Assembly (NCBI GenBank): GCA_017446455.1
Contig: JAFSQV010000028.1
Span: 1-42,490, forward strand
Source: Paludibacteraceae bacterium
Lineage (GTDB): Bacteria; Bacteroidota; Bacteroidia; Bacteroidales; Paludibacteraceae
Direction of reading: 5' to 3'
Length of the DNA stretch: 42,490 bases
Shown here one piece after another: positions 468 to 42,490 of this stretch. The notes under the pieces were generated by a model. That model was not told the origin of the DNA. It made no database searches and saw only the letters and a list, made by a program, of their open reading frames with translations. A program made the translations under genes and the position numbers. Position 1 is the first letter of the stretch; each line of letters opens with the position of its first letter.

Positions 468-1496
468 CTACATCGACCCTATCGCCAAACATATCAGTCC
501 TGCGAGGATGCCAACCATGCAGGCGACTTTCTTCCATGGATCTTCCTCTTTGAGGAAAAGCAATCCATACGCAAAACCGATCACCGCCCCACCTCTTCGT
601 ATCGTACTCACTACCGCTATCAGACTGTCCGGATCCCGCAGCGCCAACATATAGACGTTGTCGCTGATGATGAGAAATAGGCTTATCAAGACGATAACGC
701 CTATTTTTTGTATGGGGTGGAAGGTGTACGATGTAGGGTGGAAGGTGTACGATGTAGGGTGGAAGGTGTACGATGTAGGGTGGAAGGTGGATGGTGTAAA
801 GTGTAAGGTGTAAGGTGTAGGGTGTGCGGTGGACACTTGTTCTTTTTTTGCCTGCAAGGCGCGGACAATAAACCACACCACGAGCATCATCAGCGCCTGG
901 TAGAAGGTATAATAGACCTGCACGGCGTTATGGTCATAACTGCGCATCAGGTACTTGTCGTACAAGCCCGAACACGCCCCGATCAATATCGCCAACGCCA
1001 GCGCCACATAATAGCGGCCCGCCGGAGTATGCCTGGTATTCCGAATAGTCTGTTTATTACGAAACGAGAACACAAACACCGTTCCTATCGCCAGACTCAC
1101 ACCCAGCCATTGCCAGCCGTTGAGACGTTCTCCAAAAAGGAGTAGCGCTCCCACCAAGGTCCACATCGGCCGCGTCGCCTGCATCGGGCTGACGACCGAC
1201 AGCGGCAGGTGCTTCAACGAGATATACGCAAACACCCAACTGCTCAGCACGATCATCGACTTAACGACCACCAACCCGTGCGCCGCGAGATCCAGTTGCG
1301 GCACGTAGAACGGCGTAGCCGTCATCGTCTCCGGACATACCCGCGACAGCACCCACGGCACCGACAACAGCACCGTCGAGATACACACACTCAACGTCAG
1401 CACATCAATCACCCGGTTCTCCCGCAGCGCGATCTTCTTACTGATATCATAGCACCCCAGACAGAGGGCGGAGATGAACGATAAGACAATCCACAT
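468..1496 (-). CDS. EamA/DMT-family transporter with an in-frame repeat insert
   Basis: This is a 342-residue inner-membrane protein of the drug/metabolite transporter (EamA) type. The duplicated layout of about ten hydrophobic helices is visible, with the start MWIVLSFISALCLGCYDISKK and a conserved-looking helix end around residues 115-135 (MQATRPMWTLVGALLLFGE). The substrate is unknown. Between the two halves, about residues 221-260, the chain is replaced by a low-complexity repeat (unit HPTSYTF) encoded by a 7-bp tandem array; it sits in the hydrophilic loop before the helix IQKIGVIVLISLFLI, so the fold can probably tolerate it. A promoter of the Bacteroidota type lies just upstream (1523-1554). 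The gene is divergent from murG. Confidence 0.8.
   Translation of the reverse strand: MWIVLSFISALCLGCYDISKKIALRENRVIDVLTLSVCISTVLLSVPWVLSRVCPETMTATPFYVPQLDLAAHGLVVVKSMIVLSSWVFAYISLKHLPLSVVSPMQATRPMWTLVGALLLFGERLNGWQWLGVSLAIGTVFVFSFRNKQTIRNTRHTPAGRYYVALALAILIGACSGLYDKYLMRSYDHNAVQVYYTFYQALMMLVVWFIVRALQAKKEQVSTAHPTPYTLHFTPSTFHPTSYTFHPTSYTFHPTSYTFHPIQKIGVIVLISLFLIISDNVYMLALRDPDSLIAVVSTIRRGGAVIGFAYGLLFLKEEDPWKKVACMVGILAGLICLAIGSM
717..835. repeat. 17-unit heptamer array inside the EamA gene
   Basis: Seventeen 7-base units follow one another without a break. The first nine are three copies of the 21-base block GTGGAAG-GTGTACG-ATGTAGG, followed by more degenerate GTGNANG units (GTGGATG, GTGTAAA, GTGTAAG, GTGTAGG, GTGTGCG, GTGGACA). 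Since 21 is the first multiple of 7 divisible by 3, the block translates on the minus strand into the 7-residue repeat HPTSYTF. Adding or losing single units would shift the reading frame; adding or losing blocks of three would not. Confidence 0.9.
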
Positions 1497-1522
1497 GTTT
1501 CACTCTTTCACAAAATAGTGCA

Positions 1523-1554
1523 CAAAATTACTGCTTTTTCGCGATATGTGCAAA
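1523..1554 (-). promoter_or_regulatory. Promoter of the EamA gene
   Basis: Read on the minus strand, TTTG (complement of 1551-1554) is followed after 20 bases by TAATTTTG (complement of 1523-1530). This matches the Bacteroidota consensus TTTG, about 19-21 bp, TAnnTTTG. The start codon is at 1496, leaving a leader of roughly 20 bases. The assignment rests on the motif only. Confidence 0.7.
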
Positions 1555-1558
1555 TTTA

Positions 1559-1590
1559 TTTGCATATATCAATATTTTTTTGTACCTTTG
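1559..1590 (+). promoter_or_regulatory. Promoter of the murG operon
   Basis: TTTG at 1559-1562, a 20-base spacer, and TACCTTTG at 1583-1590 match the Bacteroidota consensus exactly. The murG ATG at 1612 follows after about 20 bases. The -33 element lies only four bases from that of the divergent EamA promoter, and the two form the inverted repeat CAAATTTATTTG (1551-1562), so the promoters are likely to compete or to share control. Confidence 0.75.
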
Positions 1591-1611: not shown

Positions 1612-2682
1612 ATGCGTTATTTGATTTCCGGAGGGGGAACCGGAGGACATATCTTCCCCGCAGTCAGCATCGCGAACGCGCTGAAGGAACTCGATCCCGA
1701 CGCGCAGATCTTATTCATCGGCGCCCTTGGACGCATGGAGATGGAGCGTGTTCCGCAAGCCGGCTATGAGATCGTCGGCCTGCCCGTCCGCGGCTTCAAC
1801 CGTGCCCAGCCTTGGAAGAACATCTCCGTACTCGCCGACCTCGCGAAATCCATCCGCCAAGTGAAGAAGATCATTCGTGACTTCCGCCCCGACGTAGGTG
1901 TCGGTGTCGGCGGCTACGCCTCCGGTGCAGCAATGTGGGCCGCAGCCCAGATGGGCATACCTATCCTCCTGCAAGAGCAGAACGGCTTTGCCGGGGTGAC
2001 CAATAAGATTCTTAAAAATAAAGCCGCGAAGATCTGCGTAGCCTACGAAGGCATGGAGCGCTTCTTCCCCGCCGACAAGATCATCCTCACCGGCAACCCC
2101 GTAAGGCAGAACCTGACCGAGGGAATTAAAAATGAAAAATTAAAAATTAAAAATTTATTGATTCTCGGCGGCAGTCTGGGTGCCCGGACAATCAATAACG
2201 CCATCAAGGCCGCCCTGCCTACTCTCGCCGCTTCGGACATACATGTCGTGTGGCAGACAGGTAAGATTTATTTCGATTCGTGCAAAGCCGCATGGGAAGC
2301 AGCCGGAAGTCCGGCGAACATCGAGTGTCTGGATTTTCTTTCCGACATGCCCGACCGTTATGCCCAGGCTGACCTCGTGATATCCCGCGCAGGCGCTTCG
2401 TCCATCAGCGAGATATGCCTGCTCGGCAAACCCGCTATCCTCGTGCCTTCGCCCAACGTAGCGGAGGACCATCAGACGCATAACGCCATGGCCCTCGTGC
2501 GGAAAGATGCCGCAGTACTCGTCAAAGATGCAGATGCCGCAGAGCAACTGATCCCTACGGCCCTCGAACTGATACAAGACGATGCGCGTCTCAAGACCCT
2601 GCATACTAACGTCCTCACCCTCGCCCAGCGTGACTCAGCCAAACGTATCGCTGAAGAAGTGATGGCGCTGGCCGCTCGGTAA
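1612..2682 (+). CDS. murG: MurG, lipid II-forming GlcNAc transferase
   Basis: MurG transfers GlcNAc from UDP-GlcNAc to lipid I at the cytoplasmic face of the membrane, giving lipid II for peptidoglycan. The N-terminal GGGTGGHIFPA loop (residues 7-17), the GNPVR segment, the second glycine loop GGSLGAR (about 186-192), and the late RAGASSISE and NVAEDHQTHNA motifs are all present. I chose ATG 1612 rather than the upstream in-frame ATG at 1546 because the promoter -7 box (1583-1590) lies between them and the protein then starts directly with the family sequence MRYLISGGG; the length is 356 residues. A heptamer array (2124-2156) encodes about residues 171-182 (IKNEKLKIKN), just before the second glycine loop. 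It is the first gene of a long plus-strand series, without the usual mur/fts neighbours. Confidence 0.96.
   Translation: MRYLISGGGTGGHIFPAVSIANALKELDPDAQILFIGALGRMEMERVPQAGYEIVGLPVRGFNRAQPWKNISVLADLAKSIRQVKKIIRDFRPDVGVGVGGYASGAAMWAAAQMGIPILLQEQNGFAGVTNKILKNKAAKICVAYEGMERFFPADKIILTGNPVRQNLTEGIKNEKLKIKNLLILGGSLGARTINNAIKAALPTLAASDIHVVWQTGKIYFDSCKAAWEAAGSPANIECLDFLSDMPDRYAQADLVISRAGASSISEICLLGKPAILVPSPNVAEDHQTHNAMALVRKDAAVLVKDADAAEQLIPTALELIQDDARLKTLHTNVLTLAQRDSAKRIAEEVMALAAR
2124..2156. repeat. Heptamer array inside murG
   Basis: The units AATTAAA, AATGAAA, AATTAAA, AATTAAA and a partial AATTT follow each other in a 7-base period. They read in frame as a Lys/Ile/Asn-rich stretch between the two domains of MurG. 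The A/T-only composition contrasts sharply with the GC-rich codons around it. Confidence 0.85.
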
Positions 2683-4421: not shown

Positions 4422-4425
4422 GAGC

Positions 4426-5430
4426 ATGAAAGAACTGCTGCAGCACGCACAACATATCGTTATCTTCACCCACATGGCGCCTGACGGCGATGCCATGGGT
4501 TCGGCCCTCGCACTCTATCACTGGCTCGGCGGCAAACCCGAGGTGATCGTTCCGAACGCTTTTCCGGCTTTCTTCAACTGGATGCCGGGCGCGGACCGGA
4601 TTCATGTGTATGAGAAAGAGAAAGCGGCATGCGATGCACTCATCGCAGCCGCAGACCTCTTTATCTGCACCGACTTCAACGACCCCAAGCGTATCGGACC
4701 CATGGGTGACAAGATGCTCGCAAATCCTTGCCCGAAGATCCTCATCGACCATCATCTCAACCCGACGGACTTCGCCGATGAGGTCCACTCCCACCCCGAA
4801 GCCTCCTCGAGTTGCGAGATCGTCTATAAACTGCTCTTCGGTGATAAATCATCAATCAGCAATCAGCAATCATCAATCAGCAACAAAGTTGCTACTTGCC
4901 TCTACACCGGCCTCATGACCGACACGGGCAATTTCAGTTTTAACTCTACGCGCGCAGAGTTGTACGACATCATCGCCGAACTCTTACGCGCGGGCGTGCA
5001 GAAAGATGCCATCTACGATGCGGTCTTTAACCAGTATTCCGAGCACCGCGTTCGCCTTACCGGCTATGCCCTCTATCGTAAGATGCGTATCTACCCCGAG
5101 CACCACTTGGCGCTCATCACCCTCTCCGCAGACGAGTTGGACCAGTACCATTACCAGGTAGGTGACACCGAAGGACTGGTCAACATGCCGCTCCAGATCA
5201 GCGACGTCTATTACTCCGTCTTCATGCGTGAGGAGCGCGCCAAACCCGGCACACCCAAGTCCCGCATCCGTATCTCCTTCCGTTCGCAGGGAGACCGACC
5301 CGTCAACATATGGGCCAGCGAAGTCTTCCATGGCGGCGGACATGCCAACGCCTCCGGAGGTGAGATATTCGGCACTATCGGCCAAGCAGTACGACTCTTT
5401 GAACAAACATACAAAACATATCTGAAATGA
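4426..5430 (+). CDS. nrnA: DHH/DHHA1 phosphoesterase, NrnA-like
   Basis: NrnA-type enzymes degrade very short oligonucleotides and dephosphorylate 3'-phosphoadenosine 5'-phosphate in the cytoplasm. The metal-binding motifs are clear: DGDAMGS (residues 20-26), DFNDPKRIG (about 83-91), DHHLNP (about 108-113), TDTGNFSFNS (about 165-174), and the DHHA1 glycine motif GGGHANASGG near residue 305. The length of 334 residues is normal. Between the DHH motif and TDTG, about residues 142-153, a heptamer array encodes the Ser/Gln/Asn-rich insert SSISNQQSSISN. The stop overlaps the start of the next gene by ATGA, indicating translational coupling. Confidence 0.9.
   Translation: MKELLQHAQHIVIFTHMAPDGDAMGSALALYHWLGGKPEVIVPNAFPAFFNWMPGADRIHVYEKEKAACDALIAAADLFICTDFNDPKRIGPMGDKMLANPCPKILIDHHLNPTDFADEVHSHPEASSSCEIVYKLLFGDKSSISNQQSSISNKVATCLYTGLMTDTGNFSFNSTRAELYDIIAELLRAGVQKDAIYDAVFNQYSEHRVRLTGYALYRKMRIYPEHHLALITLSADELDQYHYQVGDTEGLVNMPLQISDVYYSVFMREERAKPGTPKSRIRISFRSQGDRPVNIWASEVFHGGGHANASGGEIFGTIGQAVRLFEQTYKTYLK
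4850..4884. repeat. Heptamer array inside the nrnA-like gene
   Basis: There are five units: CATCAAT, CAGCAAT, CAGCAAT, CATCAAT, CAGCAAC. The array reads in frame as a Ser/Asn/Gln-rich insert in a loop between conserved motifs, where it is likely to be tolerated. Confidence 0.88.
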
Positions 5431-7205: not shown

Positions 7206-8843
7206 ATGCGGAAGTACGCGCCGTACATATTTATCGTAGGTTTGTTCCTCTGTCTATACGGAATGCTATATGAGCGCCCCGTTCGTTGGGATTTGACGGA
7301 CGACAAGCACTATAGTCTGAGTGAGGCCTCCAAGACCCTGCTCCGTGCCACCGATGCGCCTATCGAAGTAACCCTCTTACTCGACGGAGACCTCAACGCA
7401 GGCTTCCGCCGACTCAAGAAAGCCACCGAAGAGACTTGCGCCGAAATGCAAGTTTTCGGCGATGTACGAAGGACAAAGGACAACGGACAAAGAATTTCCT
7501 CTCTTGCCGATTCCCTCGGTCTCTCTCCCATCATCATCCATGAGCGCGAGCAGAACGGTAAGACCGCGCAAACGACCGTCTATCCCTACGCCCTGCTTTC
7601 CTACAAAGGCAAACGGGCGGTAGTGACGCTTCTCAAGAACACCCGCGGCCTCAGCGGCGAAGAGAACCTCAACGCCAGCATCGAGCAACTCGAGTTCGCC
7701 TTCATGGAAGCGCTCCACTTGCTCACGCAGTCCGAGACACCGCGGGTAGCCATCCTCGAAGGACACGGTGAACCCGACGAAGCGCATACCTATGACCTCA
7801 TGTCGGCCCTCAGTAAGTACTTCGCTGTAGACCGCGGAGCCATAGCTTCGGACTCTATCGATGCCCACATCCTCGATGGCTATCAGGCTCTCCTCATCCT
7901 CGCCCCGCAGACCGCCTTTTCCGATGCCGAGCGGTTTATCATCGACCAGTATATCATGCGCGGCGGTGCCGTCCTCTGGGCCCTCAATGGTGTGCAGCTG
8001 AGCGAAGAAGTGCTGCAGAAAGAAGGCTTCACTCCTATCATTCCTCTGGACCTCGGCCTCACCGACCTGCTCTTCCGCTATGGCGTGCGCATCAACCCCG
8101 CCCTCGTGCAGGACGTCCAGTGTCTGCCTATCCCCGTGAATGTGTCCTCCGACGCCGAGCATCCGAACTTCCAACCCATACCTTGGACCTACGCGCCCCT
8201 GCTGCTCACCAGCCAAGGATCGCCCATCACCAAGAATATGGGACAAGTCATGAGTACCTTCGTCAGCCCCATTGACGCCGTAGGCGGAGAAGATGGCATT
8301 GAGAAACGCATCCTCCTGGCTACCAGCACCGCCAGCCGTGTCACCGCGACACCAGGCGAAGTGAACCTGAGCGATATGAATCCCGATATGTCGGAGTTCA
8401 AATACCAATACGTCCCGGTGGCCGTCTCCCTCGAAGGAACCTTCACCAGCGCTTATGCCCACCGCATGGTGCCCGAAGGTGTGTTGACCGACGAACCGAT
8501 TCGTAAGATCGGCGTTCCTACCCGCCAAGTAGTCATCGCCTCCGGAAGCATCGTCATCAACGAGCTCCAGAAGAACCAAGCCCTACCCATGGGCTACGAC
8601 CGCTATAGCGGCATGCAGTTCTCTAACCGCGACATGGTGGTCAATGCCGTACTCTGGCTCACGGATGCTGAAGGACTCATCGCCCTCCGCGAGAAAGACA
8701 TCACCCTGCGCTTACTCAACGACAAGCGCGCACATGACGAACGAATGAGGATCCAACTAATAAGCACCATTAGCCCCGTCGCTATCTTGGCTCTCATCGG
8801 CGGCATAGTGTTTGTTATAAGAAAACGTAGATATGAGAAATAA
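7206..8843 (+). CDS. gldG: GldG-like ABC-associated membrane protein
   Basis: GldG proteins are the auxiliary, periplasm-exposed subunit of a Bacteroidota ABC exporter (GldAFG) needed for gliding in flavobacteria. The family opening is clear: an N-terminal helix followed by RWDLTDDKHYSLSEASK (about residues 28-44) and LLDGDLNAGFRRLKKATEE. A second membrane helix lies at the extreme C-terminus (about 515-538), followed by basic residues. Length 545 is normal. No gldA or gldF is adjacent, so the partner subunits must lie elsewhere or be absent. A heptamer array (7463-7490) encodes residues 86-95 (RRTKDNGQR) in a loop. It starts four bases after the isomerase stop and overlaps the next gene by 11 bases. 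Confidence 0.85.
   Translation: MRKYAPYIFIVGLFLCLYGMLYERPVRWDLTDDKHYSLSEASKTLLRATDAPIEVTLLLDGDLNAGFRRLKKATEETCAEMQVFGDVRRTKDNGQRISSLADSLGLSPIIIHEREQNGKTAQTTVYPYALLSYKGKRAVVTLLKNTRGLSGEENLNASIEQLEFAFMEALHLLTQSETPRVAILEGHGEPDEAHTYDLMSALSKYFAVDRGAIASDSIDAHILDGYQALLILAPQTAFSDAERFIIDQYIMRGGAVLWALNGVQLSEEVLQKEGFTPIIPLDLGLTDLLFRYGVRINPALVQDVQCLPIPVNVSSDAEHPNFQPIPWTYAPLLLTSQGSPITKNMGQVMSTFVSPIDAVGGEDGIEKRILLATSTASRVTATPGEVNLSDMNPDMSEFKYQYVPVAVSLEGTFTSAYAHRMVPEGVLTDEPIRKIGVPTRQVVIASGSIVINELQKNQALPMGYDRYSGMQFSNRDMVVNAVLWLTDAEGLIALREKDITLRLLNDKRAHDERMRIQLISTISPVAILALIGGIVFVIRKRRYEK
7463..7490. repeat. Heptamer array inside the gldG-like gene
   Basis: The units AGGACAA, AGGACAA and CGGACAA follow a degenerate first unit TGTACGA. 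They read in frame as a basic, polar stretch between two conserved beta segments of the GldG-like protein. Confidence 0.75.
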
Positions 8844-10224
8844 AGCATTTATAGTCCTTGCTCTTTGTGCTTTGCTCTTTGTTCCGGCAAAGGCACAGGA
8901 GTTATTGAATTACCCGCTCGACACTATCAACGGGGAAGAGGTATACCGTTATCAAGTGGAACGCGGCATAGGTCTGTATCGCGTCGGAGTCAACTTCGAT
9001 GTACCGCAGTCCGAGATTCTTCGTCTCAACCCGCAACTACGCGAACGCGGACTCCACTTCGGCGAAGTCATCCTCCTGCCGACCAAGCGCCCGGTAGTCA
9101 AGAAGGTGACTCCGGTGGTTCCGGAGACTCCGATTGTTCCCGAGGTTCCGGTTGTTCAGGAAACTCCGAGTACTTCGGTAGACCACTTCACTACCGAAAC
9201 CCTTTCGGTGGCTTCCCTTGCCACAGACTCGCTCGCTGCAGACAGTCTTGTGCCCGACACCCGTCGTGTCGTTGAACTGGCAATCCTCTTGCCTTTCGAG
9301 AGTCGCCAGACCAAACGCAGCACCAACGCAGAGCGTATGATGGAGTTTTACCAAGGCGCACTCCTCGCCATCCACGACCTGCAGAACGACAGCATCCTCT
9401 ACCGTCTACGCGTCTACGACAGCGAGCGGAGCGAACGTCGTGTCGCGGCTCTCTGCGACAGTACGGACTTAGACAGCGTTAAAGCCATCCTTGGCCTCGT
9501 ATATCCCATCCAGATAGAGCGCATGGCCTCTTGGTGCGAGCAACACCAAGTACCGTTGCTCCTGCCCTTCAGCGATGATCTCGAACTGGAGAACTATCCC
9601 TATGTGCTCCAATTCAACTCGACGGACGAGCAGGAAGCGGACAGCCTCTGCGCTTGGCTCAGGCACTGCCATGCCCACTGTGTGGCTGTTGAAGTACGAG
9701 ACGAAGACCTCTCGGCATCCGTCCGTACCCTCCGTAAGCAGATGCGGGTACGAGGTATACCCTGCACCGCCATGGGCTTGCACGATTTAATGATGGACTC
9801 TGTGGCCTATGCCCTCGATCCGGAAAGAGAGAACGTCATCCTATTACACAGCGACCGCTATCAGTTAGTACGTATGGCTATCCCCCATATCGTCAAACTG
9901 CAAGAAGAAGGCTATCGCATCCGCCTCATCAGCCAGTTCAGTTGGACCAAAGAGAATCCGGGTGTCCCGGTCGTATATACCTCGCTATTCTCGAGCAACG
10001 CGAGCCTCGAGGCCTATGATGCACAATGGAGAACCTATTTCTCGGAAGAACATGTATCCGAAGCGCCGCGTTATGACCTGCTTGGCTATGACCTGATGCA
10101 GGCCCTCGTAGCATGGCTCAATGGCGAACAAACCCATACTGGCCTCCAATCATCTATCCGCTGGCAACAAGTGAGACAAGGTGGATACCAAAACGCATGC
10201 GTAGAAGTGAAAGTTGAAAAGTGA
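8833..10224 (+). CDS. LysM plus periplasmic-receptor-fold protein
   Basis: This exported protein of 463 residues has a signal peptide (cut after AKA, about residue 21). A LysM-like module (about 36-75: YQVERGIGLYRVGVNF, then ILRLNP and VILLPTK) probably binds peptidoglycan. A Pro/Val/Glu-rich linker with near repeats (VVPETPIVPEVPVVQETP) leads to a domain at about 137-455 resembling type 1 periplasmic receptors (ABC substrate-binding fold), beginning VELAILLPFES. It is likely to be a cell-wall-attached envelope protein; the ligand, if any, is unknown. The start overlaps gldG by 11 bases. The last residues (VEVKVEK) and the stop codon are made by a heptamer array. Confidence 0.75.
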   Translation: MRNKAFIVLALCALLFVPAKAQELLNYPLDTINGEEVYRYQVERGIGLYRVGVNFDVPQSEILRLNPQLRERGLHFGEVILLPTKRPVVKKVTPVVPETPIVPEVPVVQETPSTSVDHFTTETLSVASLATDSLAADSLVPDTRRVVELAILLPFESRQTKRSTNAERMMEFYQGALLAIHDLQNDSILYRLRVYDSERSERRVAALCDSTDLDSVKAILGLVYPIQIERMASWCEQHQVPLLLPFSDDLELENYPYVLQFNSTDEQEADSLCAWLRHCHAHCVAVEVRDEDLSASVRTLRKQMRVRGIPCTAMGLHDLMMDSVAYALDPERENVILLHSDRYQLVRMAIPHIVKLQEEGYRIRLISQFSWTKENPGVPVVYTSLFSSNASLEAYDAQWRTYFSEEHVSEAPRYDLLGYDLMQALVAWLNGEQTHTGLQSSIRWQQVRQGGYQNACVEVKVEK

Positions 10225-10255
10225 AAAGTGAAAGGTGAAAGATGAAAGGTGAAAG
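10207..10255. repeat. Heptamer array forming the gene junction
   Basis: Seven units: GTGAAAG, TTGAAAA, GTGAAAA, GTGAAAG, GTGAAAG, ATGAAAG, GTGAAAG. Unit 3 contains the TGA stop of the LysM gene (10222-10224). Unit 6 starts with the ATG of the barrel gene (10242). Units 4-5 provide AAAGGTGAAAG-like purine-rich sequence before that ATG. The array thus makes the complete junction between the two genes. Confidence 0.9.
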
Positions 10256-11807: not shown

Positions 11808-11851
11808 ACCTAGTTTATATGGTCTAGCTATGGTCTAGCTATGGTCTAGCA
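11808..11851. repeat. 11-bp tandem array between kduI and kduD
   Basis: Three near-perfect units ATGGTCTAGCT are preceded by a degenerate unit, ACCTAGTTTAT. Each unit contains the tetramer CTAG. The array takes up most of the 81-base gap; ordinary A-rich leader sequence follows up to the kduD ATG at 11878. No terminator is seen, so kduD is probably in the same transcript. Confidence 0.85.
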
Positions 11852-28341: not shown

Positions 28342-28375
28342 TCTCCTGAGGATTGCCTACCCTCGTCCTATGCAT

Positions 28376-33046: not shown

Positions 33047-36000
33047 TTGAAGAAATTCCTGCACATAGTACTCCTTTGCACACTGGCCTTCGGGTCCGTG
33101 CAGGTAACGTATGCCCAGAAGACGCTCAAAGAGTTAGTCGCCGAAGAGAAGGCGGCCAAAGAGGCGGAGAAGAAAGCCAAGGCCGAAGAGAAAGCGCGGC
33201 AAGAAGCCGAGAAAAAAGCGCGCGAGGAAGCAAAGGCAAAACGCGATGCGGCGCTTGCGGCCGGCGAAGCCGTTCCTGAAGACGTAGCCGATATCATCAC
33301 CCTCACGGACAGTGCGCTATGGGCGCCGACGAACGTGAAGCAACTCGGTGCGCAGAACTACGGTGAACTGACCCAACCCGTCTCATCCCTTGATCTGAAC
33401 GATCCGGACAATATCACCACCTCCGTGGAGTACCAACCGGAGACAGGTACGTACGTCATCCGCACGCGCATGGGCGATACGGACATCACTACGCCTTACC
33501 TGCTCACGCAAGAGGAATATAACCAGTACGCCGAGCGTCAGATCATGCATAAATACTGGCAGCAGAAAATCGGAGAAGTCGAGCATAATAACGAAACGAA
33601 ATTCGACATCACCGATATGAAGTTCAATATCGGACCTGCCGATAAAGTGTTCGGCCCGGGTGGCGTACAACTCAAGATGCAAGGTTCGGCGGAACTGCTC
33701 TTCGGATTCAAGCATCAGTATATCGCTAACCCGTCTTTGACCGCACGCGCGCGCAACAATAACATCTTCGATTTCGACGAGAAGATCCAAGCGAGCGTAC
33801 AAGGTAAAGTGGGCCAAAAACTCAACTTCAACCTCTCGTACAACACCGAGGCTTCGTTCTCTTTCGACCAACAGAACCTCAAACTCAACTACAAAGGCGA
33901 AGAGGACGATATCATTCAGTCTATCGAAGCCGGTAATGTCACGATGGACTTGCCTTCGTCGCTCATCCGCGGTAGCAAAGCGCTGTTTGGTATCAAGACG
34001 AACCTCAAATTCGGCAAACTGAAAATCCAAGCTCTCATCTCGCAGCAGAACAGCGAATCGCAATCCGTCAGCAGCCAAGGCGGTGCGCAGATGACGCGCT
34101 TCGATATCGCCGGGGATAACTACGACGAGAACCGACATTTCTTCCTTGCCCATTTCTTCCGCGATAACTTCGAGAAAGCGATGGAGACCGTACCTTATGT
34201 AGCGAGCGGAGCACAGATCACGAAAATTGAAGTATGGATCACCAACAAGCGCGGCGCGTACGACCAGGCACGCAACATCGTAGCCTTCGTCGACCTCGGA
34301 GAGAACAGCCGTCACACCCACAACCGCGCATGGGATAAGTCCGCAAACGCCGTTCCTGATAACACCGCCAACACCCTTTATGAGACGGTTAAAACTACGC
34401 CCTTCCGCGATCTGTCGCAGACCACGACGGCATTGGAAGGACTCAACGGCATGCATGGCGGTGAGGACTTCGAGAAGATCGAGTCCGCGCGCTTGCTGAC
34501 CAGCAGCGAATATACGCTCAATGCCTCACTCGGATATATTTCTCTCAAGAGCGCCCTCAACCAAGACGAGGTCCTCGCTGTAGCGTTCGAATATACGTAT
34601 AACGGCCAGGTATACCAAGTGGGTGAGTTCTCCACCGACGGAGGTGAAGAGTTGCGTGCCCCAAATGCTTTGGCTCTTAAAATGCTGAAGTCCAGCGCCA
34701 ATGCGCCCGGCGAGAAGCACCGCGGCACGTGGGACCTCATGATGAAGAATATCTACTCGCTGGGCGCCACAAGTCTCTCGCAAGAGAAATTCGAACTCTA
34801 CGTCACCTACCGTAACGACTCCGTCGGTACGGACATGCAATACTTGGACGAAGGTCCTGTCAATGGTAAGCAGTTGCTTCGCGTGATGAATCTCGACCGT
34901 TTGGATCAGAAGCATAACGCCAGCCCTGATGGACGATTCGACTACCTCGAAGGACTCACCGTCTATTCTTCCTCCGGCCGAATCATCTTCCCGGTGCTGG
35001 AGCCTTTCGGTTCCCACTTGGCGAGTGTGCTGAATAACGATCCGCGCTTGGTAAGCAAATACTGCTTCCCGGAACTCTACGACTCGACGCTGGTAGTCGC
35101 ACAAGAGATGACGGAGAAAAACAAATTCCGCCTCACCGGTAAGTACAAAGGCACCAACAGCAGCGAGATACGTCTCGGCGCGATGAATATCCCGCGCGGA
35201 AGTGTCACCGTCACCGCCGGAGGTGCTACCCTCGTAGAGAATGTCGACTACACCGTGGACTACACCATGGGAACGGTTACCATTCTTAACACCTCCATCC
35301 TGGAGTCCGGCACAAACGTCGATGTCAAACTGGAGAACCAGAGCACTTTCTCCATGCAGCGTAAGTCGCTCTTCGGTGCTCACCTCGAATATGAGTTCTC
35401 TAAAGATCTCGTCATCGGCGGTACCATCATGCACTTGCGCGAGCGTCCGCTCACTACAAAAGTCAACACGGGTTCTGAACCGCTGGCCAACACCATCTGG
35501 GGTGTGAACGGAAGTTGGAAGACCGAGATGCAGTGGCTTACCAATGCCATCGATAAGATCCCATGGATCACGGCGACCGCTCCTTCGACCTTCTCTATCA
35601 ACGCGGAGTTTGCGCACCTCATCCCGGGTCATACGAATGACGTGGGCTCTGTGGGAACCGCCTACATCGATGATTTCGAGAACACCACCACGAACATAGA
35701 CGTCCATTACCCGACCTATTGGTTCTTAGCCTCTACGCCGGCTAAGTTCGCGGAGTCGAGGGCATACGACATCTCGTACAATAAGAACCGTGCTCACATG
35801 GCGTGGTATACTGTCGATCCTATCTTCGGCTATCCGCAAACGAACACGCCTGCGCATATTCGCAACGACTTGGCTGCCCTCAGCGACCACCGTACACGAA
35901 TCGTCTATCAAGACGAGATATATCCGAATCGTCAGGAAGCCAGCAACGTGGACACCAAGTTACCGGTGCTCAACCTCGCCTTCTATCCTGAGGAGCGCGG

Positions 36001-39000
36001 ACAGTATAACATCGCGCCGGATGAGATTGGAGCGGATGGTAAGATGCTCAACCCGAAACAACGCTGGGGCGGTATGATGCGCCGCATGGATAATACGGAT
36101 TTCGAGAAAGCGAACATCGAGTATATCCAGTTCTGGCTGATGGATCCGGCCCTTACCAACCCGGGACACGAACTCGACTACAACGGCGAGATGTACATCA
36201 ACCTCGGTGACATCAGCGAGGACGTGCTCCACGACGGAAAGAAAGCCTTCGAGCATGGTCTGCCTGTCTCGCCGGCGGACCAAGGTCGTGTAGACTCCAC
36301 CATCTGGGGTTACGTTCCGCGTACGACGAGTACAGTAGTTGCCTTTAGCAACGAACCCGGTTCGCGCCCTATGCAAGACGTCGGTCTCAATGGTTTGAAT
36401 GATGAGCAAGAGCACAACTGGCCGGCCTACAAGACCTTTGTGGAAGAACTGACCAAAAAAGTCAATCCGTTTGTACTCGAAAAATGGAAGAATGACGTTT
36501 TCTCGCCGCTCAATGACCCTGCCGGCGATAACTACCATTTCTATCGTGGTACGGACTTCGATGAGCAGGAGGTGAGCATCCTCGACCGTTACAAGCACTT
36601 CAATGGTCCTCAAGGCAACTCCCCCGCAACCGAGCAACAGACGGAGAGTTACGGTACGGCTGCTACCATGCAACCGGATATCGAAGATGTCAACCTCGAT
36701 AACACGCTGAACGAATACGAGAAATACTACCAGTATAAAGTGCTGCTCCGCCCCGACATGTTAGAGGTCGGCAAACAGCATATCACGGAGAAAAAGGTTC
36801 GCGCGGTCACCCTGCGTAACGGCGAAACTGTCAATGTGACTTGGTATCAGTTCAAGATTCCTCTTCGCGGAGACAGCGCTACGGTGGAGAAGATCAACGG
36901 CATCCGCAACTGGAAGTCCATCCGCTTCATGCGTATCTTCCTCACGGGCTTTTCGCATGACACCTATCTGCGTTTCGCGACGATGGATCTCGTTCGCGGC
37001 GAATGGCGTCAGTACACGCGCGACTTAGCGCCGGTAGGCGTTCCTGTCAATACAGGCGCTTCCATTGACGTGCAGGCTGTAAATATCGAAGAAAACAGCA
37101 CTCGTACGCCGATCAACTATGTGCTGCCTCCGGGTGTGAGTCGTCAGACAGACCCGGGACAGGCCCAACTCATTGCGCAGAATGAGCAATCGATGGTGTT
37201 GCGTGTCACCAACCTCAGTCCGCACGATGCCCGCGCGATGTACAAGAACACCGTCTATGATATGCGCCAATACAAGAACCTCCAGATGTTTGTTCATGCG
37301 GAGCAAGTCACTGCCCTTGACCCGAATCTCAAAGACGGCGACCTCTCTTGCTTCATCCGTCTGGGTACGGACCTCAAGAATAACTATTACGAGTACGAGA
37401 TTCCGCTGCACCTCACTGCGCCGGGATTGTACAATAACAACTCCGAAGCGGATCGCCGACTCGTTTGGCCGGATGCGAACATGTTCAACTTCGCGCTCAA
37501 AGTGCTGACGGATGCCAAGCTGGCGCGTAACAAAGCCAAACGGGCAGGAACCGCAGGTGTAAGCAACACCACCCCGTACATCGTATACGACGAAGCATCC
37601 GGTCATCCGCAGAACAAGATTACCGTTTTGGGTAACCCGACACTCGAAGATGTAGCGTCCATCATGATCGGTGTGCGTAACAACGGCCAGCACGACGCTT
37701 CCGGAGAAATCTGGGTCGATGAGTTACGCCTCAGCCAATTCAACGAGCAGGGCGGTGTGGCCGCTATGGCGAATGCAGCATTGGCTATCAGCGATATCGC
37801 GCAAGTGAACGTAGCCGGACGATTGGAGACCGCCGGATACGGATCTATCGAAGCCAACGTGCTCGACCGCAACATGGATAATTTCTACCAGATATCCGTC
37901 AGCGCAGCCATGGAAGCCGGACGACTCTTCCCGGAGAAAGCGAAATTGCAGATTCCGCTCTACGTCTCCTATAGCAAAGAGACTACTACGCCGGACTATG
38001 ACCCGCTCGATACCGACGTGAAGTTAGCGGAGACCCTGAGCACCTATGAGAAGAAATCGGATCGTGACTCCGTCAAAGCTTTGACCACGACGGTACACGA
38101 GTCCACGTCCTTCTCCTTGTCGAACTTCAAAGTGGATATCCACTCCAAGAAACGCGACATGTTCTACGACCCGGCGAACTTCTCGCTCTCGGCTTCGTAC
38201 AACAAGCAAGCGGAGCACTCACCGGAGATGGAGACCAACTACAACACCGACCATAAGGGTTCATTCCAGTATGCGTATAACTTCAATCCCAAGCCTTGGG
38301 AACCGTTCAGCAAAGTAGAGAAAGTGCAGAACGTGAAAGTCCTCAAAGAGATGAATTTCTACTATCTCCCGCAATCCTGGGCCTTCCGCATGAACATGCA
38401 CCGCACCTTCAGCCACATGAAGATGCGCGACCTCGCCGGTTCTTCGGCCCAAGCGATGGATCTGACCTATAGTAAGGACTTCACCTGGGATCGTAACGTG
38501 GATATCAAGTACGACCTGACGAAGAACCTGAAGTTCACCTTCCAATCGGCGATGAACGCCATCATTGATGAAGGAAAATATACACCGGAGATATTAATCG
38601 ATCGCTATTTCGATCCGGAGTTCAACCACGATCATTATGAGGCTTGGCGCGACACCATCCAGCGCTCGCTGGCGCGCTTTGGCCATGCATACGCATACCA
38701 GCAGATCTTCACTGCCAGCTGGAATGTGCCGTTCAACCGCATCCCGTATCTCGACCCGCTCACGGCGAATGCTTCCTATAACGCCAACTATAACTGGAAC
38801 CGCACCGCCTCTTCATCCAATGGTATCAACCGCGGTAACACCATCAGTTCGATGCAATCGTGGCAAGTAGACGGAGGTATCAACTTCGAGACCTGGTACG
38901 GCAAATCCAAATACTGGAAGCAAATGACGCAGCGATATACCGGCCGCAACACCAAACGTAATTTCAAGCCAAAGAACTATACGCAGACCGTAGCGCTCAA

Positions 39001-40636
39001 GAAAGGCGAGCCGCTCGAAGTAACCCACCGTCTGAATACGGAGTTACTCACCGTCAGCGTAGCCGACTCTACCGGCAAAGCGATCCCTGTTTCCTTCCGT
39101 CCGGACGGCAATACCAAAGTGACAATCACACCGAAGGCCGATTGCGCCAACGCGACTATTACTGTTGCCACACGCGACCCGAACGAGCGCACGCCGGCAC
39201 AAATCGCAGGCGATATGTTTGCATACCTCGGTACGATGGTACGTCGTCTGCAAGTTACCTATCGCGAGACGAACTCTATGACCATCCCGGGCTTCGAACC
39301 CGAAGCGGGCTTCATGGGACAATGTAAGGTGAACGGAATCTGGGCACCGGGTTATGACTTCGCCTTCGGTTTCATACCGGCGAATATGATTGAGCGCGCG
39401 AAAGAGAACGGCTGGTTATCCGGCGACACCTCTGTCGTGCAACCCGCCATCCGCGCGCACACCTCGGACTTCGATGTCAAACTGACACTCGAGCCCCTGC
39501 CGGGTCTCAAGATACAACTGAACGGTAAGCGCTATTTCGCGCAATCAAGTTCGATCATCTACTCCTTCGATGACCCGCAAGAGATGGTGACGGGTTCGTT
39601 TAACATCACGCAGTGCGCTATCGGAACGATGTTCGCACCGGTAGGACCGCAAGAAGCTAACTTCGCGAACGCGACGTATGACCGATTCTTGGAGTACCGC
39701 GCGATCCTGCATGCCCGCGTGCAAGACCAATATACCGGTATCACGCTCCCAAGTAAAGGATTCATGAAGGATATACCGGCCGGAACGAAGTACGACCCGA
39801 ACAAGCACGGGCGTGTCAGCTCCACGTCGGCAGACGTCTTAGTGCCTGCCTTCCTCGCTGCATACACGGGCCAGAACCCGCGCACCATCGGCCTTAACCC
39901 CTTCTTGAGTATCCTTAAGATCATACCGAACTGGTCTCTTACGTACGACGGTTTAGGCAAACTGCCGTGGATGAAAGATCACTTCAAATCGGTTACCCTT
40001 ACGCATGCGTATACTTGTAAGTATTCCATCGGTTCCTATGGCTCGTTCTCTACCTGGGTAGGCTGTGAGGATAACAACACGCAAGTCGGTTTTGTCCGTA
40101 ATGTATCTACCGACTCGCCGATGCCTTCGTCTGCATACGACATCAGCAACATCACCCTTACCGAAGCCTTCTCGCCGCTTATCGGCGTGAACCTCACGAT
40201 GAAGAACTCCCTCTCCGTCAAAGCCGAGTACCGCAAACAGCGTAACCTCGCGCTCAACATCACGAGCGTACAATTGACCGAGGGTCATACCGATGAATTC
40301 GTCATCGGAGGCGGTTATACGATTAAGAACCTCAACTTCATCACTAAGAACAAAGACGGCGTACAAAAGAAAGTAAGCAACGACCTCAAGATACAAGTTG
40401 ATCTGTCGTACAAAGACGTGAAGATGCTGCTCCGTAAGATTGACGAAGGAATCACGCAGGCTTCATCCGGTAACAAAGTCTTTGCTATCAAGATCTCGGC
40501 CGACTATGTACTGAGCCAGAAGATCAACCTCCAACTCTTCTACGATCATCAAGGTACCACGCCGCTTATCTCGTCCTCCTACCCCGTTAAGACAGATAAT
40601 ATCGGTCTGAATATCAAACTGATGCTCACGCGCTAA
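33047..40636 (+). CDS. sprA: SprA, type IX secretion translocon
   Basis: SprA is the giant outer-membrane barrel through which T9SS cargo proteins leave the cell. The 2529-residue protein starts with TTG, giving the signal peptide MKKFLHIVLLCTLAFGSVQVTYA. After an unusual Lys/Glu/Ala-rich stretch (about residues 25-75), family features appear: FNIGPADKVFGPGGVQLKMQGSAEL (about 192-216, in parts), the NFNLSYNTEASFSFD strand, QSIEAGNVTMDLPSSLI, TFSINAEFAHLIPG, AYIDDFENT, and late GEIWVDELRLSQF (about 1560-1572). It then continues as a long series of amphipathic strands to the C-terminal NIGLNIKLMLTR. No stop or frameshift interrupts it. Its presence predicts T9SS partners elsewhere in the genome. 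Confidence 0.95.
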   Translation: MKKFLHIVLLCTLAFGSVQVTYAQKTLKELVAEEKAAKEAEKKAKAEEKARQEAEKKAREEAKAKRDAALAAGEAVPEDVADIITLTDSALWAPTNVKQLGAQNYGELTQPVSSLDLNDPDNITTSVEYQPETGTYVIRTRMGDTDITTPYLLTQEEYNQYAERQIMHKYWQQKIGEVEHNNETKFDITDMKFNIGPADKVFGPGGVQLKMQGSAELLFGFKHQYIANPSLTARARNNNIFDFDEKIQASVQGKVGQKLNFNLSYNTEASFSFDQQNLKLNYKGEEDDIIQSIEAGNVTMDLPSSLIRGSKALFGIKTNLKFGKLKIQALISQQNSESQSVSSQGGAQMTRFDIAGDNYDENRHFFLAHFFRDNFEKAMETVPYVASGAQITKIEVWITNKRGAYDQARNIVAFVDLGENSRHTHNRAWDKSANAVPDNTANTLYETVKTTPFRDLSQTTTALEGLNGMHGGEDFEKIESARLLTSSEYTLNASLGYISLKSALNQDEVLAVAFEYTYNGQVYQVGEFSTDGGEELRAPNALALKMLKSSANAPGEKHRGTWDLMMKNIYSLGATSLSQEKFELYVTYRNDSVGTDMQYLDEGPVNGKQLLRVMNLDRLDQKHNASPDGRFDYLEGLTVYSSSGRIIFPVLEPFGSHLASVLNNDPRLVSKYCFPELYDSTLVVAQEMTEKNKFRLTGKYKGTNSSEIRLGAMNIPRGSVTVTAGGATLVENVDYTVDYTMGTVTILNTSILESGTNVDVKLENQSTFSMQRKSLFGAHLEYEFSKDLVIGGTIMHLRERPLTTKVNTGSEPLANTIWGVNGSWKTEMQWLTNAIDKIPWITATAPSTFSINAEFAHLIPGHTNDVGSVGTAYIDDFENTTTNIDVHYPTYWFLASTPAKFAESRAYDISYNKNRAHMAWYTVDPIFGYPQTNTPAHIRNDLAALSDHRTRIVYQDEIYPNRQEASNVDTKLPVLNLAFYPEERGQYNIAPDEIGADGKMLNPKQRWGGMMRRMDNTDFEKANIEYIQFWLMDPALTNPGHELDYNGEMYINLGDISEDVLHDGKKAFEHGLPVSPADQGRVDSTIWGYVPRTTSTVVAFSNEPGSRPMQDVGLNGLNDEQEHNWPAYKTFVEELTKKVNPFVLEKWKNDVFSPLNDPAGDNYHFYRGTDFDEQEVSILDRYKHFNGPQGNSPATEQQTESYGTAATMQPDIEDVNLDNTLNEYEKYYQYKVLLRPDMLEVGKQHITEKKVRAVTLRNGETVNVTWYQFKIPLRGDSATVEKINGIRNWKSIRFMRIFLTGFSHDTYLRFATMDLVRGEWRQYTRDLAPVGVPVNTGASIDVQAVNIEENSTRTPINYVLPPGVSRQTDPGQAQLIAQNEQSMVLRVTNLSPHDARAMYKNTVYDMRQYKNLQMFVHAEQVTALDPNLKDGDLSCFIRLGTDLKNNYYEYEIPLHLTAPGLYNNNSEADRRLVWPDANMFNFALKVLTDAKLARNKAKRAGTAGVSNTTPYIVYDEASGHPQNKITVLGNPTLEDVASIMIGVRNNGQHDASGEIWVDELRLSQFNEQGGVAAMANAALAISDIAQVNVAGRLETAGYGSIEANVLDRNMDNFYQISVSAAMEAGRLFPEKAKLQIPLYVSYSKETTTPDYDPLDTDVKLAETLSTYEKKSDRDSVKALTTTVHESTSFSLSNFKVDIHSKKRDMFYDPANFSLSASYNKQAEHSPEMETNYNTDHKGSFQYAYNFNPKPWEPFSKVEKVQNVKVLKEMNFYYLPQSWAFRMNMHRTFSHMKMRDLAGSSAQAMDLTYSKDFTWDRNVDIKYDLTKNLKFTFQSAMNAIIDEGKYTPEILIDRYFDPEFNHDHYEAWRDTIQRSLARFGHAYAYQQIFTASWNVPFNRIPYLDPLTANASYNANYNWNRTASSSNGINRGNTISSMQSWQVDGGINFETWYGKSKYWKQMTQRYTGRNTKRNFKPKNYTQTVALKKGEPLEVTHRLNTELLTVSVADSTGKAIPVSFRPDGNTKVTITPKADCANATITVATRDPNERTPAQIAGDMFAYLGTMVRRLQVTYRETNSMTIPGFEPEAGFMGQCKVNGIWAPGYDFAFGFIPANMIERAKENGWLSGDTSVVQPAIRAHTSDFDVKLTLEPLPGLKIQLNGKRYFAQSSSIIYSFDDPQEMVTGSFNITQCAIGTMFAPVGPQEANFANATYDRFLEYRAILHARVQDQYTGITLPSKGFMKDIPAGTKYDPNKHGRVSSTSADVLVPAFLAAYTGQNPRTIGLNPFLSILKIIPNWSLTYDGLGKLPWMKDHFKSVTLTHAYTCKYSIGSYGSFSTWVGCEDNNTQVGFVRNVSTDSPMPSSAYDISNITLTEAFSPLIGVNLTMKNSLSVKAEYRKQRNLALNITSVQLTEGHTDEFVIGGGYTIKNLNFITKNKDGVQKKVSNDLKIQVDLSYKDVKMLLRKIDEGITQASSGNKVFAIKISADYVLSQKINLQLFYDHQGTTPLISSSYPVKTDNIGLNIKLMLTR

Positions 40637-40638
40637 TC

Positions 40639-41100
40639 GTGTACAAAGTTGGTATCATAGGACCCGAGTCCAGCGGCAAGAGTACGCTGGCGCGCTATCT
40701 GGCGAAGCGCTATAGCGGCGTGCTTATCCCCGAATATGCCCGCGAATACGTAGAGCAAAAAGGGACTACCGAAGTCACTTTCGATGAACTATGCGCCATA
40801 GCCAAACACCAGATTGAAGAGTTGGAGAATCTCTCCTCTAACCTATATTTCTTCGACACGGAGTTAATCGTGACGAAGGTATGGTTCGACTATGCCTTCG
40901 GGCGTGTACCGAAATGGCTCAACGAAAACATCCACCGTTTTCCGATGGATGTTTACCTATTGACGTACCCGGATATCGCGTGGATTCCTGATCCTGCCCG
41001 CTCCAATGGTTCGGATGCGATTCGTAAAGAACTCTTTGATCGTTACGAAGCGGAGATACAGTCCTTGGATATACCGTATTATATCATTCGCCACGTCTAA
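40639..41100 (+). CDS. NadR-like P-loop kinase
   Basis: This P-loop protein of 153 residues starts with GTG two bases after sprA. The Walker A box GPESSGKST (residues 8-16), EYAREY (about 32-37), FFDTELIVTKVW (about 71-82, Walker B-like Asp) and the lid region PDIAWIPDPARSNG match the ribosylnicotinamide-kinase domain of NadR, which phosphorylates nicotinamide riboside; stand-alone versions are common in Bacteroidota. It ends at IIRHV, roughly 20 residues shorter than most relatives; no matching continuation is seen in other frames. Its stop overlaps that of the convergent PII-like gene. Confidence 0.8.
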   Translation: MYKVGIIGPESSGKSTLARYLAKRYSGVLIPEYAREYVEQKGTTEVTFDELCAIAKHQIEELENLSSNLYFFDTELIVTKVWFDYAFGRVPKWLNENIHRFPMDVYLLTYPDIAWIPDPARSNGSDAIRKELFDRYEAEIQSLDIPYYIIRHV

Positions 41101-41390
41101 ACCGTAGCGACGATATCCCAGACGAACGCGCGTACTCCTACCTCCTCATTACGCAAGTCGAGTTTCTTCACTGCTTCAAGCAGCGGAGCCGTTCGCTCAT
41201 CCTCAACAATGGTAATCACGCAGGAGTTCATCTCGGGCCATGCGTGCGTACCACGGCGGGGCTCGCCGCCGTTGGTACCACGACCCTGTACTTGCTCAAA
41301 GAACGTGAAGCCCTTGATGCCAAGCACATCTAACATATATTCCACACGACCCGTATTGGCCTGGTTAAAAACAATCATTACGGATTTCAT
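41097..41390 (-). CDS. PII-like regulatory protein next to an RND pump
   Basis: This 97-residue protein is of the PII-like ferredoxin fold. MIVFNQANTGRVEYMLDVLGIKGFTFFE (in parts), the T-loop region QGRGTNGGEPRRGTHAWPEMN and the C-terminal VRAFVWDI are typical of small Bacteroidota proteins found beside RND efflux genes. The role is not settled; a trimeric sensor that modulates the pump is plausible by location. Its ATG overlaps the original stop of the RND gene (TGA at 41387-41389), so it was translationally coupled to the pump. Confidence 0.75.
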   Translation of the reverse strand: MKSVMIVFNQANTGRVEYMLDVLGIKGFTFFEQVQGRGTNGGEPRRGTHAWPEMNSCVITIVEDERTAPLLEAVKKLDLRNEEVGVRAFVWDIVATV

Positions 41391-42490
41391 ACTTGTTCCT
41401 CCTTTGTACTTTGTACATTGTCACTTTGTCCCTTTACCTTAATATCCATAAAGATAAATTTCTTGCGTAGCGCTTCCTGCTTGTCGCGGTCGCCGTGGCG
41501 TGACATCACACCGTAGAGGACCGGTACGACATAGAGCGTGAGGAAGGTTGAGACGGTCAGACCGCCGATGACGACGATACCCAGCGGCTGCTACATCTCG
41601 GCACCTTCACCGGAAGAAACTGCCATAGGAATCATACCAAGGATGGTTGTGAACGCCGTCATGAGGACCGGACGGATACGGCTGCGTCCGGACATTTGGA
41701 TAGCCGTGTTCAGTTCGTAGCCGCGCTCACGCATGAGGTTGATATAGTCCACAAGCACGATACCGTTCTTCACCACAATACCCACCAGGAGAACCAGACC
41801 GAGGGCACCGATCATATCCAGTGAACGACCTGTGAGCCAGAGGGCTACGATGACACCCGAGAGGGCAAACGGAATGGAGAACATAATGATTGCCGGCATT
41901 CGGAGAGACTCGAACTGCGATGCCATGACGATATATACCAGCATGATAATCATCAGACCGAGAAGAATCATGTCGGAGAAAGTATCCTGCTGCGTCTCGT
42001 AGTTACCGCCTATATGGGTGGAATAGCCTACAGGAATATCGAGTTGAGGAATAACCTCTGTCTCAATCGCTTTTGCCAGTTCACCGAGGGTGGTATTGTA
42101 CGGCGTAGCCTTGACGGTTACGATACGCTGACGTGCCTTACGCTCGATGGTAGGTGGTGCCCAGTATTCGCCGACCGTTGCCACCTCGGAGAGTTTGACG
42201 GTCTTACCCGTCACCGTAGGGATAGAGAGGTTGAGGATGTCGGAGATCGAGTTGCGGTCTTCCTCCATGAGGCGTACCACGATGTCGTACTCCGAGCCGT
42301 CATCCTTGAGATAGCCGCACGCCATACCTGCCACGCGGTTGCGGAGGTAGGTAGAGATAGTAGCGGAGCTCAGGCCGAGACGCGACGCTTTCTCTTTATC
42401 CACGGTAATCTTGATATCCGGACGGTCGTCCTCACGGGAGATATTCACGTCGCGGGCACCGGGCAGTTGCGAAATCAGTTGGCGGCATTG
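41387..42490 (-). pseudogene. RND efflux pump, 3' part, with in-frame amber codon
   Basis: This is the C-terminal third of an inner-membrane RND (AcrB/CusA-like) pump, open to the right edge. It shows the porter segment ending SREDDRPDIKI, DKEKASRLGLSSATISTYLRN, SQFESLRMPAIIMFSIPFALSG, and the helix pair GLVLLVGIVVKNGIVLVDYINLMRERG. The frame meets TAG at 41591-41593, directly after GEGAEM, where related pumps have Trp (TGG). Beyond it the same frame continues [19 protein letters not shown] and so on, the last membrane helix, to TGA at 41387-41389. A single G-to-A change explains this. The final residues (KGQSDNVQSTKEEQV) come from a heptamer array. As written, the protein lacks its last helix. 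Confidence 0.85.
41404..41431. repeat. Heptamer array in the tail of the RND gene
   Basis: Plus-strand units TTGTACT, TTGTACA, TTGTCAC, TTTGTCC. On the minus strand they encode the last polar residues of the RND reading frame, before its TGA and the overlapping start of the PII-like gene. It is the same class of array as in thiL. Confidence 0.8.

Follow-up and report, generated by a model that had tools for sequence, protein, structure and literature searches.

The window analysed here, a 42,490 bp contig (C79; JAFSQV010000028.1 of assembly GCA_017446455.1) from a 1.84 Mb, 80%-complete metagenome-assembled genome (MAG) of an uncultured gut bacterium of the Paludibacteraceae, was found to carry short degenerate tandem arrays with a 7 bp period (heptamer arrays), located at gene junctions and in frame within conserved enzymes. 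Comparison with related genomes showed that these arrays turn over faster than the sequence surrounding them and that sharing of a repeat unit is two to four times as frequent within genomes as between them, so several heptamer families have spread, and the arrays represent neither one element nor the outcome of locus-by-locus slippage alone. They can tentatively be described as short dispersed heptamer blocks that are copied when synthesis switches template over short tracts, change shape through 7-nt slippage and persist where tolerated, an explanation to which we give somewhat less than an even chance. Heptamer repeats are already known; what is new here is the many different units, their insertion in coding sequence, the species-specific unit preferences ('dialects'), the ordered copies and the one-sided inverted repeats.

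According to MurG, the nearest named relatives of the source organism are Paludibacteraceae and Bacteroidales MAGs, mostly from rumen and gut. Genome-scale scans covered 585 kb of the window genome and 440 kb of a sister species (G087), to which it is ~94% identical at the DNA level by alignment. Genus-wide pattern counts were performed on 101 genomes of the genus, and profile counts for reverse transcriptase and mutS on 41. Contigs of the window genome are labelled C, those of G087 gC and the loci of relatives L.

All eleven arrays of the original prediction were returned by Tandem Repeats Finder. A strict self-match scan of the window recovered nine of them (those at 7463 and 41404 being below threshold), with no arrays of periods 1-6, 8, 9 or 10, three of period 11, four of period 14 and three of period 21, and the same scan of ten order-2 Markov sequences gave no period-7 arrays. 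On the 585 kb of the window genome, 56 period-7 arrays were identified, compared with none for periods 3-6, four for period 8, six for period 9 and eleven for period 11, with the harmonics 14 and 21 represented by 35 and 11 arrays. G087 was found to possess 31 arrays of period 7, one each of periods 4 and 6 and five of period 8. The MurG loci of 80 relatives held 115 arrays of period 7, 17 of period 8, six of period 6 and 42 of period 11; of those with period 7, 103 were in 47 loci (L009-L055) and 12 in 33 more distant loci (L056-L088). A looser scan identified 75 arrays in the window genome and 41 in G087, and none in order-3 Markov sequences (three for each genome). Period 7 was found to dominate the 585 kb sampled and to exceed its neighbouring periods, and neither of the outcomes named beforehand as speaking against the prediction (a period 7 no commoner than 6 or 8, or inserts that are ordinary loops) was observed.

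An assembly artefact was rejected as an explanation, because the arrays are in frame and because many genomes, each assembled separately, carry arrays at identical positions but with differing units. A scan of the window with Rfam at the gathering threshold gave no structured RNA family. Arrays of period 11 (and 22) form a second class, found in the window at 391-467, 11818-11850 and 28299-28343, the latter two being absent from the sister species. An array of the heptamer TTAGGGG, a telomere-like sequence, was observed at approximately position 39134 of contig C30 of G087.

Among arrays with anchors in G087, three of 16 retained an identity of 80% or more, the consensus unit of one of the three being different; the corresponding figure for anchored random windows of 32 bp was 274 of 289. 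Arrays lacking anchors, which come chiefly from beyond the stretches common to the two genomes, were left out of this comparison, as were unanchored random windows. A different heptamer repeat was present in G087 at four sites (GldG and C85:5982 by score, MurG and C85:1585 by eye), with mostly none elsewhere. The MurG loop was surveyed in 78 of 81 sequences, the window included, the loop motif not being found in three. At a score of 10, period 7 was detected in 15 of these, period 10 in one and periods 4, 5, 6, 8, 9 and 11 in none. At a score of 9, 16 period-7 arrays of 12 distinct units were counted, 12 of these arrays in a loop of 39 nt. More distant MurG homologues were non-repetitive at the aligned loop. 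The prediction that arrays come and go between close relatives, with distant homologues of MurG having ordinary sequence, is thus borne out by both the sister comparison and the MurG alignment. The loop of L040 carries a period-10 array (TCAAACAACN) where its relatives carry arrays of period 7.

Other sites were also found to hold different units at one position across up to a dozen genomes. At the G087 junction gC21:13559, orthologues are either compact, with the stop codon overlapping the start codon, or carry differing repeats. An array of 31 bp at C51:9611 is kept in three species, and all four of its copies have changed in concert, being ATTGATG/ATTGCTG in the window genome and ATTGAAG/ATTGCAG in G087. 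Copy number at C51:8587 differs by 7 bp from that of the same site in another species (L228). The array and hairpin of C51:8587 and L228 are common to the distant species G030 and not to the sister, which suggests that a short patch was recombined between species at this site. The notion that copies are born already degenerate was dropped, because it cannot be told apart from ageing of the copies on the basis of sister divergence and the detection threshold.

The shared period with differing units had originally been read as a process that makes heptamers rather than the spread of one element. A period-7 process with turnover was upheld, but the absence of spread was not: units are not independent from place to place, copy order is kept across loci and one 33-bp element is dispersed. 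Among 32 relatives with at least two arrays, the same unit was found in 19 of 364 within-genome pairs (5.2%) and 135 of 10,514 between-genome pairs (1.3%), an excess reached in none of 1000 permutations, with random heptamers giving 0.1%. The loci of these relatives are mostly ~20 kb, meaning that closeness could matter, and the comparison was therefore repeated on distant pairs. In the window genome and G087, a unit was shared by 130 of 3370 pairs (3.9%) that were separated by more than 20 kb or placed on different contigs, by nine of 225 close pairs and by 63 of 3075 between-species pairs (2.0%); the difference between distant within-species and between-species pairs was reached in eight of 2000 permutations. 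Closeness along the DNA was rejected as the cause of unit sharing in these two genomes, as distant pairs still share.

The order of variant copies was examined in 350 pooled arrays with duplicate contexts removed, non-orthology being judged by 25-nt flanks. At k=26, 75 non-orthologous pairs were found to share a string with internal variants, compared with 35.2 +/- 5.3 when copies were permuted (none of 60 permutations reaching 75) and 40.5 when copy order was reversed. Dialects were apparent from exact triplets of two units, ATTGNTG being present in 61 and ATTGNAG in 39 of the 101 genus genomes. Across the 28 genomes with at least ten matches, the ratio of ATTGNTG to ATTGNAG ranged from 59:2 (G046), 45:2 (G098) and 29:0 (G070) to 7:52 (G080) and 1:21 (G035, G085), with a chi-square of 323 (27 degrees of freedom) that is overstated because overlapping matches within arrays were counted as independent. 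Backward-pattern controls were non-empty in some genomes that carry other heptamers (up to 26 matches in G086). A rule of one dialect per genome proved too strong, since the two types are represented in the window genome by 22 and 16 matches.

One ordered string is an element of 33 bp. The window arrays at 32117 and 41404 are copies of CTTTGTAC-WTTGTAC-WTTGTCM-CYTTGTACWTY, the last unit of which is 8 bp. Allowing up to three mismatches, this element was identified in 58 of the 101 genus genomes (31 matches in the window genome, 77 in G075, 65 in G063 and two in G087), with a backward control of zero in all. A looser 22-nt pattern found 14 copies in the sampled part of the window genome. Twelve of them lie in predicted genes and share a single orientation; nine of the twelve also share a reading frame, which gives [NDK]VQGDNVQSTK or a close variant, and two of the genic copies sit in similar proteins. 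Thirty further loci were obtained by search, one of them a copy already counted and two without a long open frame, which were dropped. The same orientation and frame were seen in 18 of the remaining 28, while at L192, L207 and L218 the opposite strand is read as a hydrophobic, signal-peptide-like stretch at the gene start. The MurG loop of L016 reads NVQRDNVQRTK. One strand of the element can thus supply a hydrophilic stretch (xVQGDNVQSTK) and the other, in a few genes, a hydrophobic stretch resembling a signal peptide.

Inverted repeats were found to lie next to arrays on one side. Arrays were oriented on their C-poor strand, and an inverted repeat was counted when it scored at least 7 and ended within 4 nt of the array; 115 of the 116 arrays of the window genome and G087 were used, one without full flanks being dropped. 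In this first set an inverted repeat was present on the 5' side of 20 of 115 arrays and the 3' side of three, compared with 24 of 3000 random sites (0.8%). As the bias was first noticed by eye in this set, it was retested in a separate set, where it was seen at 13 of 168 arrays on the 5' side and two of 168 on the 3' side (Fisher p = 0.006; random sites 0.4%), giving 33 and five of 283 for both sets combined. Divided by class, the first set gave 5' and 3' counts of seven and zero for 25 interior antisense arrays, four and zero for 20 interior sense arrays and six and zero for 35 sense arrays at gene 3' ends. Period-11 arrays of relatives showed none of 48 on the 5' side and one on the 3' side. 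The stems beside arrays consist of local sequence that differs from site to site. At gC38:25935 in G087 the sister has only the distal arm, the array-proximal arm being new, and C52:12179 and C65:7128 read alike.

The one-sided inverted repeats together with the shared copy order argue for templated copying of a 3' end rather than simple slippage. In the mechanism that we propose, the growing 3' end at a stalled or broken end would sometimes fold back, making or lengthening an inverted repeat. It would then switch to a heptamer block at another genomic location and copy 20-50 nt from it, the 7-nt period allowing short overlaps to pair in many alternative registers, and the copied end would finally rejoin the original site. 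Blocks are mostly ~20-50 bp, with several unit families per genome. Slippage in 7-nt steps may subsequently grow, shrink and homogenise the block, with selection retaining such blocks in signal peptides, in in-frame loops and at gene ends, where TGA stops are provided by one of the two orientations. Repeated copying from a drifting pool could give rise to the species dialects. We infer both the copying enzyme and the step size of 7 in this scheme. In a bolder form, which appears doubtful and is given little weight, the genus would possess a dedicated activity for extending 3' ends. Working on DNA ends that have folded back, this activity would attach C-poor heptamer blocks, by addition or by copying, and insert them into the chromosome; new protein loops, tails, signal peptides and gene junctions would arise from it throughout the genome, with a heritable species dialect of units kept alike over dozens of loci.

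Several observations weigh against template switching as set out above. No strong 5'-side inverted repeat was found at 250 of the 283 arrays, and the side bias was absent from the small remainder of the first set (three against three of 35, made up of one against one of seven antisense arrays at 3' ends and two against two of 28 others). The bias for period-8 arrays was not significant (three against one of 24). The arm that differs at gC21:10706 is the distal one, and much of the hairpin at C51:8587 predates its array. Approximately half of the pooled order sharing is explained by units and neighbour structure, and pairs within one cluster are not independent in that test. For the window genome alone order sharing was weak, the observed value being reached in 4 of 200 permutations at k=16, 11 at k=18, 19 at k=20 and 35 at k=22, and no effect was seen for G087 alone (64 to 166 of 200). 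Some patches may also come by recombination with other species, as at C51:8587.

The strongest alternative is that the arrays are ordinary heptanucleotide microsatellites formed in place by polymerase slippage, with period 7 set by the polymerase footprint and arrays seen where tolerated. Heptanucleotides are described as the most abundant class of long repeats in most prokaryote genomes in PMC4679880 and PMC4692102. The 7-bp copy-number difference at C51:8587/L228 is what slippage would give, the same-length concerted change at C51:9611 fits local homogenisation, and the weak or absent order sharing within single genomes agrees with it. Units are, however, shared within genomes even at distant loci, the order of variant copies is common to unrelated loci among the pooled arrays, the 33-bp element has a fixed order with an 8-bp last unit, and neither one-sided inverted repeats nor genome dialects are accounted for. 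We therefore regard slippage alone as possible but rather unlikely, and retain it within the template-switching account as the process that reshapes blocks.

The 33-bp element, dispersed and ordered, often in frame and present in more than half of the genus genomes examined, brings to mind small non-autonomous mobile elements moved by a transposase or REP-type enzyme. Rickettsia palindromic elements are palindromic, ~100-150 bp long and inserted in frame in unrelated protein genes. They resemble the 33-bp element in their dispersed in-frame insertion, but the latter is only ~33 bp, is built of heptads and showed no palindrome by eye. Cyanobacterial small dispersed repeats, the subject of Elhai and co-workers in 2008, are reportedly very small and apparently mobile, some lying near heptamer repeats; they are not known to have a heptad order or a coding role. 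Thirteen aligned copies of the 33-bp element displayed, by eye, neither the constant terminal repeats nor the target duplications of MITE or REPIN type elements, the other heptamer families had no fixed ends (also by eye), and the inverted repeats beside arrays are local and site-specific. Orthologous sites furthermore show replacement patches besides clean insertions. Mobility of this kind is accordingly considered unlikely.

The arrays are distributed over genes in a manner that fits filtering by selection for reading frame and stop codons. By simple gene calling, 27 of the 75 arrays of the window genome were inside genes, 28 over a 3' end, five over a 5' end and 15 intergenic, with corresponding numbers of 18, 14, three and six for the 41 arrays of G087. 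For arrays at 3' ends, the sense strand is C-poor on average (C 6% in the window genome and 3% in G087), and in 35 of the 42 it is the strand poorer in C. Many 3'-end arrays contain TGA or TAA; stop codons would thus appear to sort array orientation at gene ends. Of the 45 arrays inside genes, 20 have the C-poor strand as the sense strand and 25 as the antisense strand. Length differences from G087 were multiples of three at all ten sites of interior arrays (0, 0, 6, 6, 6, 18, 18, 21, 33 and 78) and at three of ten sites of other arrays, the site gC26:54445 (difference 18), of unassigned gene class, being left out of the count.

This placement could also be expected of regulatory or junction modules (A-rich translation start regions, or a supply of stops and starts) spread by selection for their function. 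The 42 of 116 arrays over gene 3' ends, with their sense strand C-poor on average, and a window array that runs into a start codon are in keeping with such modules. The 45 arrays inside genes are not, unit and presence change between sister species, and several orthologues have compact, array-free junctions, making this an improbable origin for the class. A dedicated templating enzyme adding heptamers to 3' ends, such as a telomerase-like or DRT10-type reverse transcriptase, is the least probable of the explanations considered: the C-poor strand with an inverted repeat on its 5' side does point to 3'-end extension and bacterial DRT10 makes RNA-templated tandem-repeat DNA (PMC12632851), but the many units per genome exceed the yield of one RNA template, and a PF00078 reverse transcriptase domain was found in only ten of the 41 genus genomes and not in the 80%-complete window genome. 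Reverse-transcriptase templating was rejected on this lack of a conserved reverse transcriptase in the genus. Loss of mismatch repair (MutS) was likewise rejected, a mutS match being present in 40 of 41 genomes (38 over the cut-off) and full-length in the window genome.

An excess of heptamers in bacterial genomes has been reported earlier with its cause left unsettled, and the idea of a polymerase footprint or slippage behind period 7 is ascribed to Mrazek et al. 2007, as cited in PMC4679880 and PMC4692102. The over-represented heptanucleotide simple sequence repeats of that work, for which slippage was proposed, are like the arrays described here in period. The present arrays differ in having many degenerate units per genome, abundance in frame within conserved enzymes, shared copy order and one-sided inverted repeats; the period-7 excess of that class was found here, but local, independent growth of each array was not. 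The TAACTGA direct repeats of Beggiatoaceae, cyanobacteria and some Bacteroidetes, as described in PMC4679880, also form short heptamer arrays, which are spread over numerous loci and frequently placed at gene starts, with 7-nt insertions or deletions between close strains and an unexplained origin. They consist of one unit and are mostly intergenic, in contrast to the many units, gene-end and interior positions and species dialects seen here, and TAACTGA was the unit of none of the 116 arrays of the window genome sample and G087. The GGGAATC and GGGGA(T/C)T repeats of Xanthomonas and Nostoc (PMC4692102) are degenerate heptamers with variable positions, a strand preference relative to genes and variation between close relatives in length and sequence; they are of one G-rich unit type with quadruplex potential and mainly non-coding, unlike the mostly A/T-rich, C-poor and often coding arrays of this genus. 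DRT10, as presented in PMC12632851, shares the production of short tandem-repeat DNA in bacteria, but is a defence system with a non-coding RNA template. Literature searches returned no paper on heptamers in this genus or in Bacteroidales other than PMC4679880, whose section on Bacteroidetes mentions Paludibacter propionicigenes and others.

With its many species, fast turnover and a sister pair, the genus can show how such arrays are born. The arrays also illustrate that bacteria build new in-frame segments of essential enzymes from repeat DNA, and heptamer blocks appear to be a means by which new loops, tails and gene junctions can arise quickly.

Seven arrays of the window were originally described as in frame within proteins. 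This holds for those in the genes for the EamA-type transporter, MurG, NrnA, GldG, IspD and ThiL, which are interior and in frame, but apparently not for the ‘RND’ array, which seems to lie at a C-terminal tail. The arrays at 2774, 10207, 29352 and 30496 sit at gene ends or junctions. In the EamA-type transporter gene (468-1496, minus strand), an in-frame array of period 7/21 (715-831) is absent from G087, with a length difference of 78 bp. The MurG linker array (2124-2155, plus strand; unit AATTAAA) lies between NPVRQNL and LLILGGSLGA, where solved MurG chains carry a stretch a few residues longer. G087 has an AAAGGTG-type repeat of equal length there (by eye), and a 26-bp part of the window string is found again in three other records, at loci unrelated to this one.

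Further arrays on the plus strand include one of AAAAATT/AAGAATT (2774-2806), which runs into the ATG (2802) of a gene for 539 amino acids and contains a 28-bp string found exactly on C47 of the window genome and also at L010, L224 and L250. An AATCAGC/AATCATC array (4847-4883) is in frame and interior to the NrnA-like gene, G087 being non-repetitive and 18 bp shorter, and the in-frame, interior AAGGACA array of GldG (7463-7492) corresponds to an AAAGGTG array at the same site in G087. A GTGAAAG array (10207-10255), absent from G087, holds the stop codon (10224) of a gene for 463 amino acids upstream of one for 236; a 28-bp ordered string of it was found again on C20. Close by, a TTTTCAT repeat (10291-10314) encodes the hydrophobic core of a likely signal peptide (MVLSIFIFHFLPS, start 10284), and the G087 sequence there is unrelated.

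On the minus strand, an AAAGGTG array (29352-29384) that is not in G087 occupies the 3' end of a glycosyltransferase gene adjoining the start of a KpsF/KdsD-type gene. Two AAAGTTG arrays were identified at ispD, one (30499-30524) over the stop codon, with a 31-bp difference from the compact junction of G087, and the other (30738-30770) in frame in the gene interior, G087 lacking the array and being 6 bp shorter. The 33-bp element in ThiL (KVQGDKVQSTKD; 32120-32152) is in frame, shows a 33-bp difference from G087 and forms an 11-residue insert relative to the solved ThiL structure 1vqv. Its other copy (41402-41434), at the end of the RND-permease region, differs from G087 by 27 bp and, on our reading of the alignment, appears to lie in a C-terminal tail past an interruption of the RND frame.

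A number of other features of the window were observed. The RND-permease frame is interrupted over 41435-42448 in this assembly relative to G087. A TTGCTCT-like repeat in a likely signal peptide (8858-8881) has one difference from G087; being nearly unchanged in the sister, it is therefore not of the fast-turnover class. The start of murG is probably at 1612 rather than 1546, and the stretch upstream of it (1520-1612) matches many places in related genomes and contains TTTTGTACCTTTGC, which resembles the Bacteroidetes promoter motif. After murG, a GC-rich stretch of ~74 bp (2685-2758) with complementary ends (GTACTC...GAGTAC) is absent from G087 at this site. Related copies of 75-94% identity were found twice on C47, once on C15, twice in G087 and once in L026, and the stretch looks like a separate dispersed element. 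Finally, a single open frame of 2529 amino acids spans 33047-40636, between ruvA and a nadR-like gene.

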